Assembly: GCF_000226975.2 (NCBI RefSeq)
Contig: NZ_CP019285.1
Location: forward strand, 2,976,001 to 3,040,000
From: Halobiforma lacisalsi AJ5
GTDB lineage: Archaea > Halobacteriota > Halobacteria > Halobacteriales > Natrialbaceae
Direction of reading: 5' to 3'
DNA length: 64,000 nt
A model generated the notes under the pieces. That model did no database searches, was not told where the DNA came from, and saw only the letters and a program-made list of their open reading frames with translations. Positions 11,111 through 18,217 of the stretch are shown in pieces. The first letter of the stretch is position 1. The number at the start of each line of letters is the position of its first letter. A program made the position numbers and the translations under genes.

Positions 11111-11536
11111 TCACTGCTCCGCGACGCCGAGCTGCTCGAGCATCTCCTGGCGGTCGTAGTATATCCGATGCTCCTGCACTTTACCGTCCGCGAGCAGGAA
11201 CTTGTCCATCCCCTCGAGTTCGATTTCGCGTTCGGTCGGCGGAATCCCGTTGAATTCGCCCTCGTGCGTCCCGGTGGCCGTCCACTCCGCCATGACGACG
11301 TCGGCGGCGGCGAGCACGTCGCCGAGCCTGACCTCGAAGTCCGGGAATCCCGTCCGGATCTCGCGGACGAATCCCTCGAGCGCGTCGTGCCCGTGTAGTT
11401 CTCCGCCGGGAGCGCCCGGATCGAAGACGTCGACCGATTCGTCGACGACGTCGGGGAGCTTCGAGTAGTCCGCTTCGTTCCAGACGTCTACGTAGTCGCC
11501 GAGTAGTGATTCGACCTCCTGATTCGGTTCTGCCAT
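11111..11536 (-). CDS. SnoaL-like (ester cyclase type) protein 1
   Basis: A 141-residue protein of the SnoaL/NTF2-like cone-shaped fold: YVDVWNEADYSKLPDVVDESVDVFDP, then HGHDALEGFVREIRTGFPDFEV, then WTATGTHEGEFNGIPPT, and a C-terminal strand with KVQEHRIYYDRQEMLEQLG. This order is typical of the 'ester cyclase' subgroup. These small proteins isomerise or cyclise polyketide-like substrates, but most members have unknown activity. A second SnoaL gene lies 2 kb away (13346-13771) with the same ending (MLEQLG). The gene has the shared CTAG upstream motif at 11586-11602. Confidence 0.85.
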   Translation of the reverse strand: MAEPNQEVESLLGDYVDVWNEADYSKLPDVVDESVDVFDPGAPGGELHGHDALEGFVREIRTGFPDFEVRLGDVLAAADVVMAEWTATGTHEGEFNGIPPTEREIELEGMDKFLLADGKVQEHRIYYDRQEMLEQLGVAEQ

Positions 11537-11585
11537 CGGTGGGTCACCCGGTCCACCATGGACTAGTGAGCCGCTTAAACGCGGA

Positions 11586-11602
11586 CTCTAGATAACGCTA
11601 GG
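11586..11602 (-). promoter_or_regulatory. Shared CTAG motif, copy A (upstream of SnoaL-like gene 1)
   Basis: Read on the minus strand this is CCTAGCGTTATCTAGAG, 50-66 bases before the ATG at 11536 and followed by an A/T-rich TTTAAG. It matches copies B and C in the sequence TATCTAGAG and copy C in the leading CCTAGC. It is proposed to be an activator or promoter element of the cluster. The similarity is seen directly; the function is inferred. Confidence 0.5.
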
Positions 11603-11613
11603 GCCACGTGCAG

Positions 11614-12033
11614 TTACCCGTCGATCGCCTCCGCGTGCTGGAGCAGTTCCTCGAGGGTCGTGACGAGTCCGTCGCGGGCGAGATCCAGATGTTCGGTGGC
11701 TTCGACGTGGATCGGATACACCCGGGGATGCCGACGGAGTTGGGAGTCCAGATGGGCCCGATCGATGAGGTCCTCGAGGAGGGTTTCGACGGCAACCCTG
11801 TCGCCATCATTGGCGGCCTCGAAGGCGTCGTGAGCGGTGATCGGGGAGCGAAACGGGACGTCGTGCAGGTCCCGACGGTCCCGGTGGTTGTCGAGATGCG
11901 TGTTGTAACTGCCGACGGCCTCGTTGTAGCGCCGGCACTCCTCGCGGAACTGCTCGAGGGCCGATTCCAGCAGGGAGTCGGGAGGAACCGAGCGACGGGG
12001 AGGATGCTCGCGTGGGGGGCGACGATCGGTCAT
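11614..12033 (-). CDS. Helical haloarchaeal protein of unknown function
   Basis: From the ATG at 12033 the product is 139 residues, mostly alpha-helical and rich in Arg, His and Glu (for example LLESALEQFREECRRYNEAVGSYNTHLDNH and HDAFEAANDGDRVAVETLLEDLID). The helices have heptad-like spacing, so a coiled coil or four-helix bundle is likely. No signal peptide or metal motif is seen. A GATAGTTCGAGGGGT element at 12116-12130 (minus strand) resembles the upstream element of the GYD gene, so it may belong to the same regulon. I do not recognise the family. Confidence 0.6.
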   Translation of the reverse strand: MTDRRPPREHPPRRSVPPDSLLESALEQFREECRRYNEAVGSYNTHLDNHRDRRDLHDVPFRSPITAHDAFEAANDGDRVAVETLLEDLIDRAHLDSQLRRHPRVYPIHVEATEHLDLARDGLVTTLEELLQHAEAIDG

Positions 12034-12173
12034 GCCTGCTTCCCCGTGAGTGCCGCCCGCGGTTCCGTCTCCGGGCGTCGTATGCAGGTCGCGCGGGCGT
12101 GGGCTCGGATATGTGACCCCTCGAACTATCGCTGGCCGAGTATCGAGGGACGGGCGAAAAACTCGCAGGTCGA

Positions 12174-12323
12174 TCAACAGCCTTCCCGGGGACGATAGCT
12201 CGCTGCGACGGTGAGCAGCGTGCTCGCTATCGCGGCCAGGGTGGAGAGGTACGCCGCTCCCAGGACGATATTCCGCGATGGCGCGCCGGGGGTCATGCCC
12301 GGGACGTGTGGTGTCACGCTCAT
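12174..12323 (-). CDS. Small (49-residue) single-span membrane protein
   Basis: The reading frame from the ATG at 12323 to the TGA at 12174-12176 encodes MSVTPHVPGMTPGAPSRN followed by a 20-residue hydrophobic helix (~19-41), then SYRPREGC. The composition is that of a small membrane peptide rather than an antisense shadow, and third positions are mostly G/C. It lies between the helical-protein gene and the cupin gene in the CTAG-motif cluster. No family is recognised. Expression is not shown by the sequence. Confidence 0.45.
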   Translation of the reverse strand: MSVTPHVPGMTPGAPSRNIVLGAAYLSTLAAIASTLLTVAASYRPREGC

Positions 12324-12497
12324 GTTCGATCACGGTCGTTTTCCGCGTGGTCCTTGGACATCAGTAGCACCCCTCGTGGTGATCAGACGCCCCGTTCCGT
12401 CGTAAATCTCCCCTCAACTCTGTTCTAGACGTCCCGGTGCTTCCCCGGTTCCTCGCTCGGTCGGTGAACCTGAACAGCACCGCTCGTACGGCCGCCG

Positions 12498-12514
12498 TCT
12501 AGGGCTATCTAGAG
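12498..12514 (+). promoter_or_regulatory. Shared CTAG motif, copy B (upstream of cupin gene)
   Basis: TCTAGGGCTATCTAGAG, followed by GCGGTTAAGCG. It shares TATCTAGAG with copies A and C and the downstream GCGxTTAAGCG with copy A. The cupin ATG is 93 bases downstream, so a leader or a second start is possible. Sequence match observed; role inferred. Confidence 0.5.
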
Positions 12515-12606
12515 CCAGCGGTTAAGCGAACAGTCGCGGTCGTTGTTACGAGAGGACCCCTGCGCTTCGAACGACCAGCTACGACCAACCCCTTAGCCAT
12601 AGACCG

Positions 12607-13221
12607 ATGACAGACCACAGGTCGAAGGTAACGACCGTCGACCCGTTCGTGATCGTCGAACGCCCGGAGGATCCCCGAACGGATCCGCTCCGGTTGGAGT
12701 ACACGGTTCACCCTGCGCCGGATTCTGAGGGGGGCGTCGATCTCCCACACGCCCGCTGGGTCGCCGACCTCGCCGATCGGCACGTCAATCCCCGGTGGGA
12801 CGAACGGTTCGAAGTCGTCGACGGAGCGTTGCGAGTCGGTATCGACGGAACCGAAACGACGCTCACCGAGGGCGAGGACGTCGTCATTCCCGCTACCGTT
12901 CCCCACCGTCACTGGAACCCGACCCCCGAGCCGGCCCGCGTACGCTACGAAGCGCGTCCGGGGCTTCGAGCGGCCGAGGCCCTCGAGACGCTGTACACGC
13001 TCGCACAGGCCGGTCGGACCGACGAGGAGGGGGTCCCGAATCCGCTTCAGTTCGCGGTGATCCAGGACGCGTACCCTGGGTACTTCTATTCGACCGACCA
13101 GCCTCGGATCCTCCAGCGGGCAATGGTCGCCACGCTCGCGCCGATCGGGCGCCTGCTCGGGTACGAAGCCACCTACACGCGGGACGAAATGGGGCCCCTT
13201 CGACGGAGTTCGACGCGGTGA
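12607..13221 (+). CDS. Cupin-domain protein
   Basis: A 204-residue protein with a single cupin beta-barrel at ~50-110. The motif region HVNPRWDERFEVVDGALRVGIDG is followed by GEDVVIPATVPHRHWN, giving two to three histidines and a glutamate as probable metal ligands. The C-terminal ~80 residues are helical (LEILYTLAQAG-like, then a hydrophobic LAPIGRLLGY). Such proteins bind small aromatic or organic ligands, sometimes as dioxygenases, but the reaction cannot be named. It is flanked by SnoaL genes and shares their upstream motif, suggesting a common small-molecule pathway or stress response. Confidence 0.82.
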   Translation: MTDHRSKVTTVDPFVIVERPEDPRTDPLRLEYTVHPAPDSEGGVDLPHARWVADLADRHVNPRWDERFEVVDGALRVGIDGTETTLTEGEDVVIPATVPHRHWNPTPEPARVRYEARPGLRAAEALETLYTLAQAGRTDEEGVPNPLQFAVIQDAYPGYFYSTDQPRILQRAMVATLAPIGRLLGYEATYTRDEMGPLRRSSTR

Positions 13222-13345
13222 GGCCGGAACCCCCCTCACGAGCGCCGGCCGCCGTCTAGCGGTTGGCGACCAGGCCCGCCCGGGCGAGCGTGTGCTGGGG
13301 TCGGATCGTGATGGCCGGCGTCGTCGCCTCGCCGTTCGCGTGCGA

Positions 13346-13771
13346 TCAGTCCGCCAGGCCGAGTTGCTCTAACATGCTCAGTTCGTCGGGGTTGTACCAC
13401 TTCTCGACGATCTCGCCGTCTTCGATCCGGAAGAACGCGAGGGCGCGCATGGTAAAGGATTCACCCGTTGCCGGCAGCTCCCCCAGTTGCCCCTCCTGGG
13501 TACCGCTGATCGTCCAGTGGACCGCCGCCATGTCCCCCTCGGCGATCAACGCCTCCGTCTCGACCTCCGCGTCCGGCATCGCTCTGAAGAGGTCGCCCGC
13601 CCACTCGAGGTACGCGTCGCTGCCGTGCAGGGACCCGTCGACCCCGTGGAGTCCGTGGACGACGACGTCGTCCGCTACCGTCTCCTCGATGACCGCCGGG
13701 TTCTCCTCGTTGTACCCCTCTTCGGTGTATCGCCGAACGACGGCTTTCGCGGTTTGTGGTTCCGTTGCCAT
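13346..13771 (-). CDS. SnoaL-like (ester cyclase type) protein 2
   Basis: A 141-residue SnoaL/NTF2-fold protein: AVVRRYTEEGYNEENPAVIEE, HGSDAYLEWAGDLFRAMPDAEVE, MAAVHWTISGTQEGQLGELPATG, then FFRIEDGEIVEKWYNPDELSMLEQLGLAD. It has the same length and domain order as the SnoaL-like protein at 11111-11536 but is clearly diverged, so the two are an old duplication or independent recruits. It is divergent from the copper-protein gene, and the gap between them holds copies C and D of the shared motif. Confidence 0.86.
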   Translation of the reverse strand: MATEPQTAKAVVRRYTEEGYNEENPAVIEETVADDVVVHGLHGVDGSLHGSDAYLEWAGDLFRAMPDAEVETEALIAEGDMAAVHWTISGTQEGQLGELPATGESFTMRALAFFRIEDGEIVEKWYNPDELSMLEQLGLAD

Positions 13772-13820
13772 GGGTAGTCACGCTCCCCTGTGGAGAGCAG
13801 GTGGTGGTCCGATCGGCGGA

Positions 13821-13851
13821 ACCGAAAAGCACCGTTCAAATTAGTACTAGG
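13821..13851 (-). promoter_or_regulatory. Shared CTAG motif, copy D (upstream of SnoaL-like gene 2)
   Basis: On the minus strand the element reads CCTAGTACTAATTTGAACGG and continues TGCTTTTCGGT. It aligns without gaps to the GYD-gene element (18188-18217) over about 30 bases, sharing CCTAG, a TTTGA core and a GGTG-x-TTTTCGGT tail. It begins 80 bases before the ATG at 13771. It lies in the 327-bp gap 13772-14098, which otherwise holds copy C and no gene. Confidence 0.5.
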
Positions 13852-13951
13852 TATCGGACCCCTATCTGGGATGGGTTCGACTCCCGTTCGAGGACCATCG
13901 AAGGACCAGACACGATGGCACGCGAGCGGTCGAGCGCCCTTCTCCGACGGT

Positions 13952-13968
13952 CCTAGCACTATCTAGAG
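13952..13968 (+). promoter_or_regulatory. Shared CTAG motif, copy C (upstream of copper-protein gene)
   Basis: CCTAGCACTATCTAGAG followed by GGGGGTTTGTC. It contains two CTAG tetramers nine bases apart, as do copies A and B. It is 131 bases before the ATG at 14099 (or 83 before the GTG at 14051). Confidence 0.5.
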
Positions 13969-14098
13969 GGGGGTTTGTCAAGGCCATTAGGCGGTACTGA
14001 ACACGCGTCGTGTCGCACGGATCCCAGCATGCGGACTCGGCTGAATCGGCGTGGGATTCGTCCGGCACGACCTGCCAACGATCGAAAACGGTGGTACG

Positions 14099-15352
14099 AT
14101 GACACGCTCGAACGCGGAGAAAACGGACGAATCGACCGAGGAACCGACCGGCGACCGGCTCGGTTTCGAACGGCGACCGCTCCTGAAAGCGGTCGGTGCC
14201 GGCACCGCACTCGCGGCCGGCGCCGGTATCACGACTGCTGGAGGGGACGAAGACGACGAATCCCACGAAGACGACGGGTACGACGGGACCGACGAGGGCG
14301 ACGGCACCGACACGGCGTCCGAGACCCGGGAGATCCATCCCGTGTACGGCTATCCGGCGAGGGACGCCGCAGCGATTCCGGACTCCATCGAACCGGACCA
14401 CGAAATCACGTTGGACGTCGCTCCACCCGGACCGGATCAGCCGCCGTTCCTCTACTTCGACCCCACCGGGCTTCGTGTCGATTCCGGTGACGTCGTGCAG
14501 TTCACGTTCGCCAGCCCCGACCACACCGTCACCGCCATGCATCCCGAGATCGGACTGCCCCAGCGGGTTCCTGACGGGGCCGAGCCGTTCTCGTCGCCCG
14601 TCCAGGGGCCGGGGTCGGCCTGGCTGTACCGCTTCGACCACGAGGGAGTGTACGACATCTACTGCGCTCCCCACCTCGATTTCGGCATGGTGATGCGGGT
14701 CGTCGTCGGAACCCTCGAGGAAGCGGAACTGCCGGAGTACGCGAGGACGGTCGAGGACCTGCCAAGCAGGGAGGACGTCAGTGCCGGGCTCAACGAGATG
14801 AGCGAGCAAAACGAGGGCTGCGAGTGGCCGAACCTGATGCCCGCCGGGATCCTCGGAACGGACGCGCTGGACGCGATGACCATCCAGAGAGCGGGTACGG
14901 TTCCGTTCAGCGCAGTCGTCGAGGAACTCGGCTACGAACTGATCGAAGCGCCCGAGGGACCACCCTCGGAAGTGGGTGAACCGACCGTCCGGGTCCGCGA
15001 CCATCCCGACTACGGCGAGCTCCTGGTCGGCCCCGAGGGAATGACGGTCTACATGTTCGACCAGGATACACGGAATGCCGGCGAAAGCGCCTGTAGCGGT
15101 GACTGTGCGGACGCCTGGCCGCCACTAACTGTCGACGGCGACAGGGAGCCGGTCGCCGGCGATGGCGTGACCGCAGACCTCGAGACGTTCGAGCGGGACA
15201 CCGGCGAGCGCCAGGTGACGGCGAACGGGTGGCCCCTGTACTACTTCTCGCGAGACGAGGAGCCGGGCGACGTCCAGGGACAGGGCGTCAACGACGTGTG
15301 GTGGGTCCTCCGACCGGACGGGACCCCGCTCAGGACCGACTCCGACGACTAG
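14099..15352 (+). CDS. Tat-exported copper protein: cupredoxin domain fused to a 'secreted repeat' (PF03640) domain
   Basis: The 417-residue product has a twin-arginine signal (FERRPLLKAVGAGTALAAGAG) followed by an acidic linker. Residues ~100-215 are a plastocyanin/halocyanin-like domain with type 1 copper ligands: His in SPDHTVTAMH, then Cys, His and Met in IYCAPHLDFGM. The C-terminal part (~300-417) has the secreted-repeat signature twice: LLVGPEGMTVYMFDQDT … CSGDCADAWPPL and NGWPLYYFSRDEEPGD … WWVLRPDG. It should be an extracytoplasmic electron carrier. An earlier GTG at 14051 is in frame but adds no signal features. It belongs to the CTAG-motif group. Confidence 0.85.
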   Translation: MTRSNAEKTDESTEEPTGDRLGFERRPLLKAVGAGTALAAGAGITTAGGDEDDESHEDDGYDGTDEGDGTDTASETREIHPVYGYPARDAAAIPDSIEPDHEITLDVAPPGPDQPPFLYFDPTGLRVDSGDVVQFTFASPDHTVTAMHPEIGLPQRVPDGAEPFSSPVQGPGSAWLYRFDHEGVYDIYCAPHLDFGMVMRVVVGTLEEAELPEYARTVEDLPSREDVSAGLNEMSEQNEGCEWPNLMPAGILGTDALDAMTIQRAGTVPFSAVVEELGYELIEAPEGPPSEVGEPTVRVRDHPDYGELLVGPEGMTVYMFDQDTRNAGESACSGDCADAWPPLTVDGDREPVAGDGVTADLETFERDTGERQVTANGWPLYYFSRDEEPGDVQGQGVNDVWWVLRPDGTPLRTDSDD

Positions 15353-15412
15353 GAGCGAACCAACATTTTTCCGGGCCCCTCGAGCCGAGGTGGGTGAACT
15401 CGCCCCGCGGAG

Positions 15413-17767
15413 TTAGTGTAGTTCCCCGACGAAGGCCGTCGCGAGCGTCTCGAGCGCGTTCCGCAGGTGATAGTGGAAGGTCGTCTCGGAGATGTCCATC
15501 GAGTCGGCGATGTCGCCCGCAGTGCTCCGACGCGGCCACTCGAAGTAGCCGGCGTGGTAGGCGCGCTGTAGCGCTTCCTGCTGTCGGTCGGTCAGTCGGT
15601 CCGCGATCGACTGGCGGATCTCGATCGGCTTCTGGACGGGCCGATCGAATTCCCGCTGGGCGACCAGCGTCGACTTCGGGTACGCGGTCTGTAGCCGATC
15701 GGACAGCTGTCGGATGTCGGTCGTCTGCGGCGCTTCGATACAGAACCGCCCCCGGCCGTCGTCGGCGTATCCCGAGGTGAGCATCGCCCCGTGTTCTGCG
15801 AGTTCGGTGACCGCCGGGCCGTTCATCGCGAACTCGAGCAGTCCGGTCTCGCCTTCGTCGGCGACGACCCGCGCTCGCTCCACGTCCGGATCCGCCGTCG
15901 CGACCTCGCGGACGGCCGCCGGCTCGGCGCCGTCGACGGTGAGGTACACGCTCCACGTCCCCGACGCCGACTCGACGTAGCCGGTGATGTCGATTTCACA
16001 CGCGAGGCGATCGGACGCCCGGACGAACACCAGCCCGGAGTCGGTGACCTCGAACTCGAGTTCGACGATCGTGTCCGCAAACAGGAGCGCGTGCTCCTCG
16101 ATGGCGTTGATGGCGAAGCCGACAGCCTCGCCGAGAACCTCGAACCCGCTTTGCTCGCGCCGGCTGAACGCGAGCGGACGAGTCGCGTAGACGGCCAGGA
16201 TGCCGTACGTCCGGTCGCCGTGGACCAGCGGCACCGCGGCGGCGGACTCGACGCCGCGCTCGAGGGCCGCGTCACGCCACGGTTCGAACGTCGGATCGGT
16301 CCGGATGTTCTGGCTCACCTGGACCTCGCCGCTTCGGAAGGCGCGGCCGGCCGGCCCCTGCCCGGTCTCCTCCCCCGCGGTCGTGACCGTCACGGTCTCG
16401 ACGTACCCTTCGTCGATTCCGGCGTTGGCACGGGGAACGATCCGCTGCCCGCCCGTTTCGGGCGCACCGATCCAGGCGAACTGGTAGAGATCGGAGGTGG
16501 CCAGTCGATCGCAGACCGTCTGTTCGATCTCGGTCCGCGTCGGCGACGCGAACAGGTCACGGGTGATCTCGAGGAGGAGTTCGTTGATCCGGTTGAGCGT
16601 CTCGAGTTCGTCGCGCTGGCGCTCGAGTTGCCGTTCGCGTCGTCTGCGCTCCGAGATGTCGATGGCCATCAGGATCGCACCCTCGAACTCGTCGTCCCGG
16701 TACAGCGGGACGCCACGCCCGGTGAAGTACGCTTCCTTGCCGTAGATGGATTCGAACGGGAACTCGAACTCGATCGTCTCGCCGTCTTTGAGCCGCGTAA
16801 AGAGGTCGGCCTGCCCGGTCTCGGCGATCGACGGCAGGTCACGAATATCCGTGCCGATCGCCTCCGACTCCTGTTCGTTCTCGGGGAGGCCGATGATCTC
16901 TTCGGCCCGCTGGTTCTCGTACGTGATCCGCAGTTCGTCGTCGAGGCGGAACATCCCGAACGGTGCGTTCTCGACCAGTTCCTCGTTGAACCGTCGGGTG
17001 GTTCGGAGTTGCCGTTCGCGTTCCGTCCGGTCGGTGACATCGCGTGCGACACCACACCGATAGATCCGGCCCGTCTCGCGGTCCTCGAACGTCGTTCCGC
17101 GGAACTCGTGGGGGACTCGCTCGCCGTCTTTCGTGACGAGGTCGACCTGCCGGTCGCCGAGTTGGTCGAGGCAGCCGCCGGCGTCGGATCCGGAACCCGA
17201 ATCGGAACCCCGTTCGCGTTCTTCCGGCGCGATCAGTTCCGCCGGCTCGAGTCCGGCGATCTCCGAATCCGTGTAGCCGGTCACCTCGCGGAGCGTTGCG
17301 TTCCAGAGAACCGCATCACCGTCCTCGTCGAAGACGTAAACGATGTCCTCGACCGCGTCGAACGCGCGCTCGAGCAATCGAGTGTGCTCTCGCGCGTCCC
17401 GTCCTGTCCGTTCCTCACCCGCGGCCTCGCGCGCGGTACAAACGTACTGATCGTCGGTCAATCGGGCGATCGACAGTTCGTGCGAAACCGTGGTTCCGTC
17501 CCGTCGCCGGCCAGTGATCGTCCCCCGCCAGTACCCCTCTGATCGACACGACGGGAGGATCTCCCGTTCCAGTCGGGATCGCTCGTCCTCCGCGAGACGG
17601 CGATCCCACGGTTCGCCGACCAGGTCGTCCGGACGCGAAAACCCGTATAGATCGGCGTACGCCGCGTTGACTGCCCCGTGTCGTTCGCCGTCGACGATGG
17701 CTATCGCGTCCGTCGACGCGGTCGACACTCGCTCCCGCTCCCGTATAGCCCCGGCTCCGTCACCCAT
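15413..17767 (-). CDS. PAS/GAF sensor with bacterio-opsin-activator HTH (Bat-like, HTH_10) regulator
   Basis: The 784-residue protein from the ATG at 17767 has an N-terminal PAS (~15-110), a second PAS (~120-245), a third PAS (~260-380; RFNEELVENAPFGMFRLDDELRITYENQ), a GAF domain (~400-555) and the bacterioopsin-activator region ending in HTH_10 (~730-784: LTDRQQEALQRAYHAGYFEWPRRSTAGDIADSMDIS). It has no transmembrane helix, so it senses inside the cell. Bat-type regulators respond to redox, light or oxygen and switch on nearby genes. It sits between the copper-protein gene and the GYD gene, and is the obvious candidate to read the shared CTAG motif. Confidence 0.88.
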   Translation of the reverse strand: MGDGAGAIRERERVSTASTDAIAIVDGERHGAVNAAYADLYGFSRPDDLVGEPWDRRLAEDERSRLEREILPSCRSEGYWRGTITGRRRDGTTVSHELSIARLTDDQYVCTAREAAGEERTGRDAREHTRLLERAFDAVEDIVYVFDEDGDAVLWNATLREVTGYTDSEIAGLEPAELIAPEERERGSDSGSGSDAGGCLDQLGDRQVDLVTKDGERVPHEFRGTTFEDRETGRIYRCGVARDVTDRTERERQLRTTRRFNEELVENAPFGMFRLDDELRITYENQRAEEIIGLPENEQESEAIGTDIRDLPSIAETGQADLFTRLKDGETIEFEFPFESIYGKEAYFTGRGVPLYRDDEFEGAILMAIDISERRRRERQLERQRDELETLNRINELLLEITRDLFASPTRTEIEQTVCDRLATSDLYQFAWIGAPETGGQRIVPRANAGIDEGYVETVTVTTAGEETGQGPAGRAFRSGEVQVSQNIRTDPTFEPWRDAALERGVESAAAVPLVHGDRTYGILAVYATRPLAFSRREQSGFEVLGEAVGFAINAIEEHALLFADTIVELEFEVTDSGLVFVRASDRLACEIDITGYVESASGTWSVYLTVDGAEPAAVREVATADPDVERARVVADEGETGLLEFAMNGPAVTELAEHGAMLTSGYADDGRGRFCIEAPQTTDIRQLSDRLQTAYPKSTLVAQREFDRPVQKPIEIRQSIADRLTDRQQEALQRAYHAGYFEWPRRSTAGDIADSMDISETTFHYHLRNALETLATAFVGELH

Positions 17768-17864
17768 AGTATGACATCCCCTAGCAAACAACTTAATGCC
17801 CGAGCCCCGCCGATCCCCGGCCTCGAGAGCTCCCAACACGGCGGTACGTGATCGACCGGGGCGG

Positions 17865-18164
17865 CTACTGTTCGGGCAGTCCCTCGATGACCTCCCGGTA
17901 CTCGTCCTCCGGGAAGGCCTTCAGCGTCTCGCTGCTTATTGCCCCCGCTCGCGTGACGGTGAGCACGAGCTGGGCAGCGGTTTCGTCGTCCGGAGCCTCG
18001 ATGACGGCCACGGCGTCGTACTCTCCGAACGTCAGATAGAACTGGTCGACCGTACTGTCCATCGATTCGGCCAGTTCCCTCGCGTTGGCGAGCCGATCCG
18101 GACTCTCGTCGATGTTCTGGATCCCCTGTTCCGTGTACTCCAGCAGGCTGATGTAGGTCGGCAT
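17865..18164 (-). CDS. GYD-domain protein
   Basis: About 99 residues starting MPTYISLLEYTEQGIQNIDESP, the standard start of GYD-domain (PF08734) proteins, so the ATG at 18164 is preferred over the one at 18182. The name-giving region is FGEYDAVAVIEAPDDETAAQL. The fold is a ferredoxin-like dimeric alpha/beta barrel; the function is unknown, although these genes often sit near redox regulators. The upstream copy E of the CTAG motif lies directly in front. Confidence 0.88.
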   Translation of the reverse strand: MPTYISLLEYTEQGIQNIDESPDRLANARELAESMDSTVDQFYLTFGEYDAVAVIEAPDDETAAQLVLTVTRAGAISSETLKAFPEDEYREVIEGLPEQ

Positions 18165-18187
18165 GGGCTCGTTTAGGTCCATATTGA

Positions 18188-18217
18188 CCGAAAAACACCC
18201 CTCAAACTATCTCTAGG
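18188..18217 (-). promoter_or_regulatory. Shared CTAG motif, copy E (upstream of GYD gene)
   Basis: On the minus strand CCTAGAGATAGTTTGAGGGG followed by TGTTTTTCGG. It aligns with copy D over about 30 bases. If translation began at the ATG at 18182, the ATAGTTT core would sit near -25, so the element may include the TATA box. Confidence 0.5.

Follow-up and report, generated by a model that had tools for sequence, protein, structure and literature searches.

A CTAG-containing promoter box as the predicted operator of a Bat-like HTH_10 regulator in Halobiforma lacisalsi

We analysed a window of 64,000 nucleotides (nt) from the haloarchaeon Halobiforma lacisalsi AJ5 (contig C1, 2976001-3040000, of its 4.38-Mb genome G000). 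Within 6.6 kb of this window, genes for SnoaL-like, cupin, copper and GYD-domain proteins surround a gene for a Bat-like regulator of the HTH_10 kind, and copies of one short promoter box precede them. Sequence comparison makes this box very probably the operator of that regulator, whose gene lies mid-cluster, and more precisely its upstream activating box.

The gene cluster and its promoter boxes

The regulator gene (15413..17767, minus strand) encodes 784 amino acids (aa) with PAS, PAS, GAF, BAT and HTH_10 domains (Pfam) and the recognition helix SETTFHYHLRNAL. Its neighbours on the minus strand are SnoaL1 (11111..11536; 141 aa; PF07366, 2.6e-30), a 'helical' open reading frame (ORF) of no family (11614..12033; 139 aa), SnoaL2 (13346..13771; 141 aa; PF07366, 9.5e-32) and the gene of a GYD-domain protein (17865..18164; PF08734, 1.2e-30). 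The plus strand carries the gene of a cupin protein (12607..13221; 204 aa; PF07883, 9.2e-11) and that of a copper protein, a cupredoxin of the secreted type with Lipoprotein_15 repeats (14099..15352; 417 aa; PF00127, 3.6e-8; PF03640, 1.1e-31), which also has an SCO0930-like match below the cut-off.

The six elements of the initial annotation, A to F, were all recovered at their coordinates. Site A (11583..11602, minus; CCTAGCGTTATCTAGAGTCC) lies 5' of SnoaL1 and runs into the T block TTTAAG, and site B (12498..12517, plus; TCTAGGGCTATCTAGAGCCA) lies 5' of the cupin gene, followed by GGTTAAG. Site C (13952..13971, plus; CCTAGCACTATCTAGAGGGG), 5' of the copper-protein gene, recurs as an identical 20-mer in Halobiforma haloterrestris, a close relative whose regulator is 95% identical. 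Site D (13832..13851, minus; CCTAGTACTAATTTGAACGG), 5' of SnoaL2, is followed by CTTTTCGG and has the counterpart CCTAGTGATAGTTTGACGGG in H. haloterrestris, where site E (18198..18217, minus; CCTAGAGATAGTTTGAGGGG), 5' of the GYD gene and followed by TTTTTCGG, is also kept (L120). Site F (12117..12136, minus; GCCAGCGATAGTTCGAGGGG), 5' of the 'helical' ORF, reads CCAG where the others have CTAG, and lacks a T block.

Sites A to E represent a single motif, YCTAG-N3-TA-N-Y-T-W-GAG-N-GG, which lies upstream of start codons and has a T-rich, TATA-like block at a constant distance downstream of it. The initial annotation had proposed one CTAG-containing upstream motif for the SnoaL, cupin, copper-protein and GYD genes, and this proposal proved stronger than it was put. 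Two details changed: The motif was described as CTAG-N5 before TATCTAGAG, and its true spacing is CTAG-N3-TATCTAGAG (equally CTAG-N6-CTAG); moreover, A/B/C and D/E had been aligned as two groups, and the similarity within them is real, but D and E have the CCTAG-N3-TA-N-Y-T-W-GA of A to C, and in all five the T-rich block stands about 23 nt beyond the first base of the box.

Promoter layout

A logo over 21 sites reads YCTAG-n-G-[CA]-TA-n-Y-T-W-GAG-n-G-G, followed by a variable stretch and the T block at positions 24-27. This block, which played no part in finding or training the sites, starts 22-25 nt past the box start in all 21 of them, with T at position 25 in 20. As to a lack of bias towards gene starts, which the initial annotation had named as counter-evidence, every window copy stands 35-147 nt upstream of a start codon on the same strand: 66 nt for SnoaL1, 80 nt for SnoaL2, 103 nt for the 'helical' ORF, 109 nt for the cupin gene and 147 nt for the copper-protein gene (first ATG; a GTG stands at 99 nt). 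Taking the T block as a TATA box at about -30 to -25 would put the box at about -53 to -37.

The shortest distance belongs to the listed ATG of the GYD gene (18182), 35 nt from the site start, and an in-frame ATG (18164, MPTYISL) follows at 53 nt. Because the former would precede the expected transcript start, whereas the latter coincides with it and matches the starts of homologues in relatives (MPTY or MPSY), the true start is probably 18164 rather than 18182, and the transcript is predicted to be leaderless.

Most sites may be viewed as a pair of CTAG half sites set ten base pairs, or about one helical turn, apart, of which the right half is often degenerate (TTTG); the box of genome G075 is a near-perfect palindrome, CCTAGAGCTATCTCTAGG. 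Such a half-site layout would fit binding by a dimer. Sites of the TAGTTTGAG type (L084 8686 and 1905, L085 7420, L083 10039) have an additional TGTAGC about 20 nt past the T block, near the expected transcript start.

Rarity of the box in its own genome

The pattern CTAGN3TANNTNGAG has five exact matches in the genome, four of them within these 6.6 kb, and sites D and F differ from it by one mismatch. The binomial probability of four out of five is 2.6e-11, but the pattern itself was derived from the sites, and non-circular tests were therefore used in addition. With leave-one-out matrices, each of the five copies was equalled or exceeded by none or one of 678,384 background positions (340 kb of stretches from the same genome); site A, for example, scored 16.1 bits, with one position as high. 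Site F, the weaker sixth relative that had been annotated upstream of the 'helical' ORF, is present; since its 13.2 bits were reached at only one background position, it is plausibly a weak or decayed copy of the box.

TATCTAGAG alone matches seven times in the genome, three times in this locus. At the remaining matches or near matches (1651282, 2398277, 2534834, 2945967, 3962900 and C2:30375) the layout of box plus T block was found in none. The stricter pattern CCTAGN3TANYTNGAGGGG matches in this genome and in one congener only.

The box beside orthologous regulators

The initial annotation had also suggested a motif scan of related haloarchaeal genomes. A matrix trained on the five window copies alone scored strongly, with at least 18 bits, at 14 sites close to orthologous regulators; these are spread over seven other genomes, namely H. 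haloterrestris, Halovivax, Halostella pelagica, Halomicrococcus, G324, G150 and G075 (three sites each in L083, L084 and L085, two in L067, and one each in L038, L089 and L090). No such site occurred in the stretches fetched around three sister regulators (L086-L088) or in 452 kb of control DNA taken from the surroundings of less closely related HTH_10 genes, where the maximum was 14.3 bits, and column-permuted matrices gave a mean of 0.1 and a maximum of two sites in the seven loci.

In other genera and in H. haloterrestris, the box precedes SnoaL genes (L083, L084, L085, L067) and the copper-protein gene (L083, L089), and also genes for a family-less 365-aa protein (H. haloterrestris), a membrane protein (Halovivax), a secreted DUF6345 protein and others. 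For the cupin protein and the 'helical' ORF, no homologue was found at the ortholog loci examined. By this comparison, membership of the predicted regulon (SnoaL, cupredoxin, GYD, cupin) shifts, while the box and the regulator persist. The GYD reading frame of H. haloterrestris is broken across two contig ends (L120, the end of G320 C18, and L083) after about 14 codons, with a tail that resembles the end of an insertion sequence; its promoter box is intact, and beside it a second SnoaL copy is read through one TGA.

Across 391 genomes of the haloarchaeal class, nine have a strict ortholog of the regulator (expectation value, E, of 1e-160 or better). CTAGNRNTANYTWGAG matches exactly 20 times in these 391 genomes, 13 times in five of the nine ortholog genomes as opposed to seven times in the other 382 (Fisher p 1.3e-6, counted by genome). 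The stretch around the regulator accounts for eleven of the 13, and a twelfth (G320:C18), located where a contig ends next to trpD and trpF, is the promoter of this cluster's GYD gene. None of the seven matches in genomes without a strict ortholog adjoins a homologue of the cluster genes; one of them (L116, a Halococcus relative), about 100 nt after an unrelated HTH_10 gene and with no convincing promoter, was judged to be chance. The motif is rare, since a control pattern read backwards turns up roughly one to two times in each of many genomes, in agreement with the general scarcity of CTAG.

The putative target families are widespread in relatives whose genomes have no such regulator: SnoaL genes occur in 19 and GYD genes in 11 of 21. 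The highest score in GYD stretches of five relatives without a strict ortholog and in one SnoaL stretch was 12.9 bits. The motif, as far as these genomes tell, follows the regulator and not the target gene families.

The regulator and its recognition helix

The regulator has the domain set of Bat/HTH_10 regulators, in which N-terminal PAS/GAF sensors precede BAT and a C-terminal HTH_10, with PF04967 (HTH_10) at 1.6e-21 and PF15915 at 2.7e-43 in addition to GAF and PAS. AlphaFold modelled its BAT-HTH fragment with a mean predicted local distance difference test score (pLDDT) of 82 and placed helices at residues 186-192 and 197-216 (fragment numbering), the latter being the recognition helix ETTFHYHLRNALETLATAFV. 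In Foldseek, the HTH pairs with sigma-factor domain 4 (3hug) at a root-mean-square deviation of 2.1 over 63 columns, a weak match (E 0.05).

The helix ETTFHYHLR is present in all eight motif-positive regulators, and (A/S)PTLxRHxRR takes its place in all three motif-negative sisters. H. lacisalsi itself has 56 HTH_10 matches, of which 55 exceed the curated cut-off, and their recognition helices differ greatly; ETTFHYHLR occurs in no other of these matches and in none of about 30 relatives outside the clade. In a GAF-BAT tree calculated without the HTH, a single clade (100/98) unites the eight motif-positive regulators, and its sisters are the three motif-negative ones (97/95); helix and motif therefore changed together, once. 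Two further observations concern weaker sequences near related regulators. Two Halococcus loci (L087 6435 and L088 6541) share TCTAAACGAATCTAGAA, which is weakly related to the box and lies 2-3 kb away from the sister regulator, and in L055 (2373) the sequence CAACTATCTAGAG (14.1 bits) directly follows a regulator gene with the intermediate helix SSSTLHFHLRRAL.

A predicted regulon and its alternatives

Computation showed directly that the motif is shared, stands at a rigid distance from a TATA-like block, is conserved beside orthologs, co-occurs with the regulator and co-varies with the recognition helix, and these results point to the Bat-like regulator as the owner of the box. In the resulting model, the regulator would sense a signal via its PAS and GAF domains and bind YCTAG-N3-TA-N-Y-T-W-GAG, probably as a dimer. 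Bound directly upstream of the TATA box, it would recruit or stabilise TBP/TFB, and each neighbouring gene would be switched on from its own promoter, on both strands. We infer binding, dimerisation and activation rather than repression; the single regulon proposed by the initial annotation thus gains its link between element and regulator from phylogenetic footprint, co-occurrence and helix co-variation, and the activator role from position only. Redox or electrophile stress as the signal is a guess.

Several observations weigh against this model. Site F is weak, and G075 has only the near-palindromic variant (18.9 bits), with no close start codon on either strand. The helix change is one event on the tree, and the co-variation consequently counts once, while the box might in principle be bound by any of the genome's 55 other HTH_10 matches. 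Finally, the regulator gene has no matching upstream site in the window, and autoregulation is therefore not indicated.

The best-surviving alternative, though an unlikely one, accepts the box as the operator of this regulator and reverses its sign: Beside the TATA box, the bound protein would bar TBP/TFB until a signal frees it. The box lies immediately upstream of the position of the B recognition element (BRE), its last bases may overlap that element, and some archaeal regulators bound at the BRE position do repress. However, the box takes the position of the Bat box, upstream of the TATA box and not over it, and Bat and DmsR, the known proteins of the HTH_10 type, both regulate positively (PMC1447603); this position and this analogy would favour activation.

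Somewhat less probable still is an owner other than this regulator, be it another HTH_10 protein or a TFB/TBP variant, with the regulator gene merely a member of the cluster. The genome offers many HTH_10 candidates, and co-location alone is no proof of binding, but the motif tracks this very regulator across genera, is absent beside sister regulators with a different helix, and the helix is shared with no other paralog. A third reading, in which the copies would be left over from a mobile or repeated element or would be promoter duplications that rode along with SnoaL genes (which are duplicated here and at other loci), in either case without regulatory meaning, is hardly credible and largely refuted: Likeness between copies is confined to the box and T block amid random flanks, and the genes behind them are unrelated to one another (cupin, GYD, cupredoxin, DUF6345 protein, family-less protein).

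Significance

Haloarchaea carry dozens of Bat-like (HTH_10) regulators. The Bat box was the sole verified regulatory motif of Halobacterium in a 2006 paper (PMC1502140), and our literature search found no later box for the HTH_10 family. Comparative evidence here connects a regulator with its probable box, with its targets and with the helix likely to read that box, and the predicted regulon places SnoaL-like, GYD and cupredoxin proteins in one shared context. Tentatively, and with rather less than an even chance, each haloarchaeal HTH_10 protein might be a local activator with a private box at the same promoter position, chosen by a few helix residues; with the same reservation, these might be E, Y and N of ETTFHYHLRN as against P, R and R of PTLxRHxRR. 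If true, gene neighbourhoods could yield a recognition code for the largest regulator family of haloarchaea.

Comparison with known systems

The nearest whole-protein relatives are the sister regulators of the Halococcaceae (L086, L087, L088), which are 42-46% identical over the C-terminal part and combine the helix PTLxRHxRR with an absence of the motif in the fetched stretch, in contrast to ETTFHYHLR plus motif here. Among characterized systems, the Bat regulon invites comparison. Baliga and DasSarma in 1999 reportedly placed the Bat box at -52 to -39 and the TATA box at -30 to -25; the box described here would lie 53 to 37 nt before the expected transcript start. Its sequence differs, as the Bat box, reportedly ACCcnactagTTnG, has at least five mismatches at every window copy.

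The Bat regulon of Halobacterium (bop, brp, crtB1, blp) resembles the present cluster in that a regulator with PAS/GAF and a C-terminal HTH is encoded beside its targets, and in that several separate genes each have a short box ahead of their TATA box (PMC1447603, PMC1502140), with transcript starts being predicted in our case. Whereas Bat acts on bop, brp and crtB1, the putative targets here (SnoaL, cupin, cupredoxin, GYD) are unrelated to retinal or opsin, and no Brz-like small CPxCG zinc-finger protein was found beside the regulator. DmsR, an HTH_10-type positive regulator with a Bat-like HTH, is likewise linked to its target, the dms operon (PMC1447603), but serves one operon for anaerobic respiration instead of several genes around the regulator. 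By sequence, the system of H. lacisalsi is a regulator of the HTH_10 kind with a probable box of its own, and not a member of the Bat/bop regulon.

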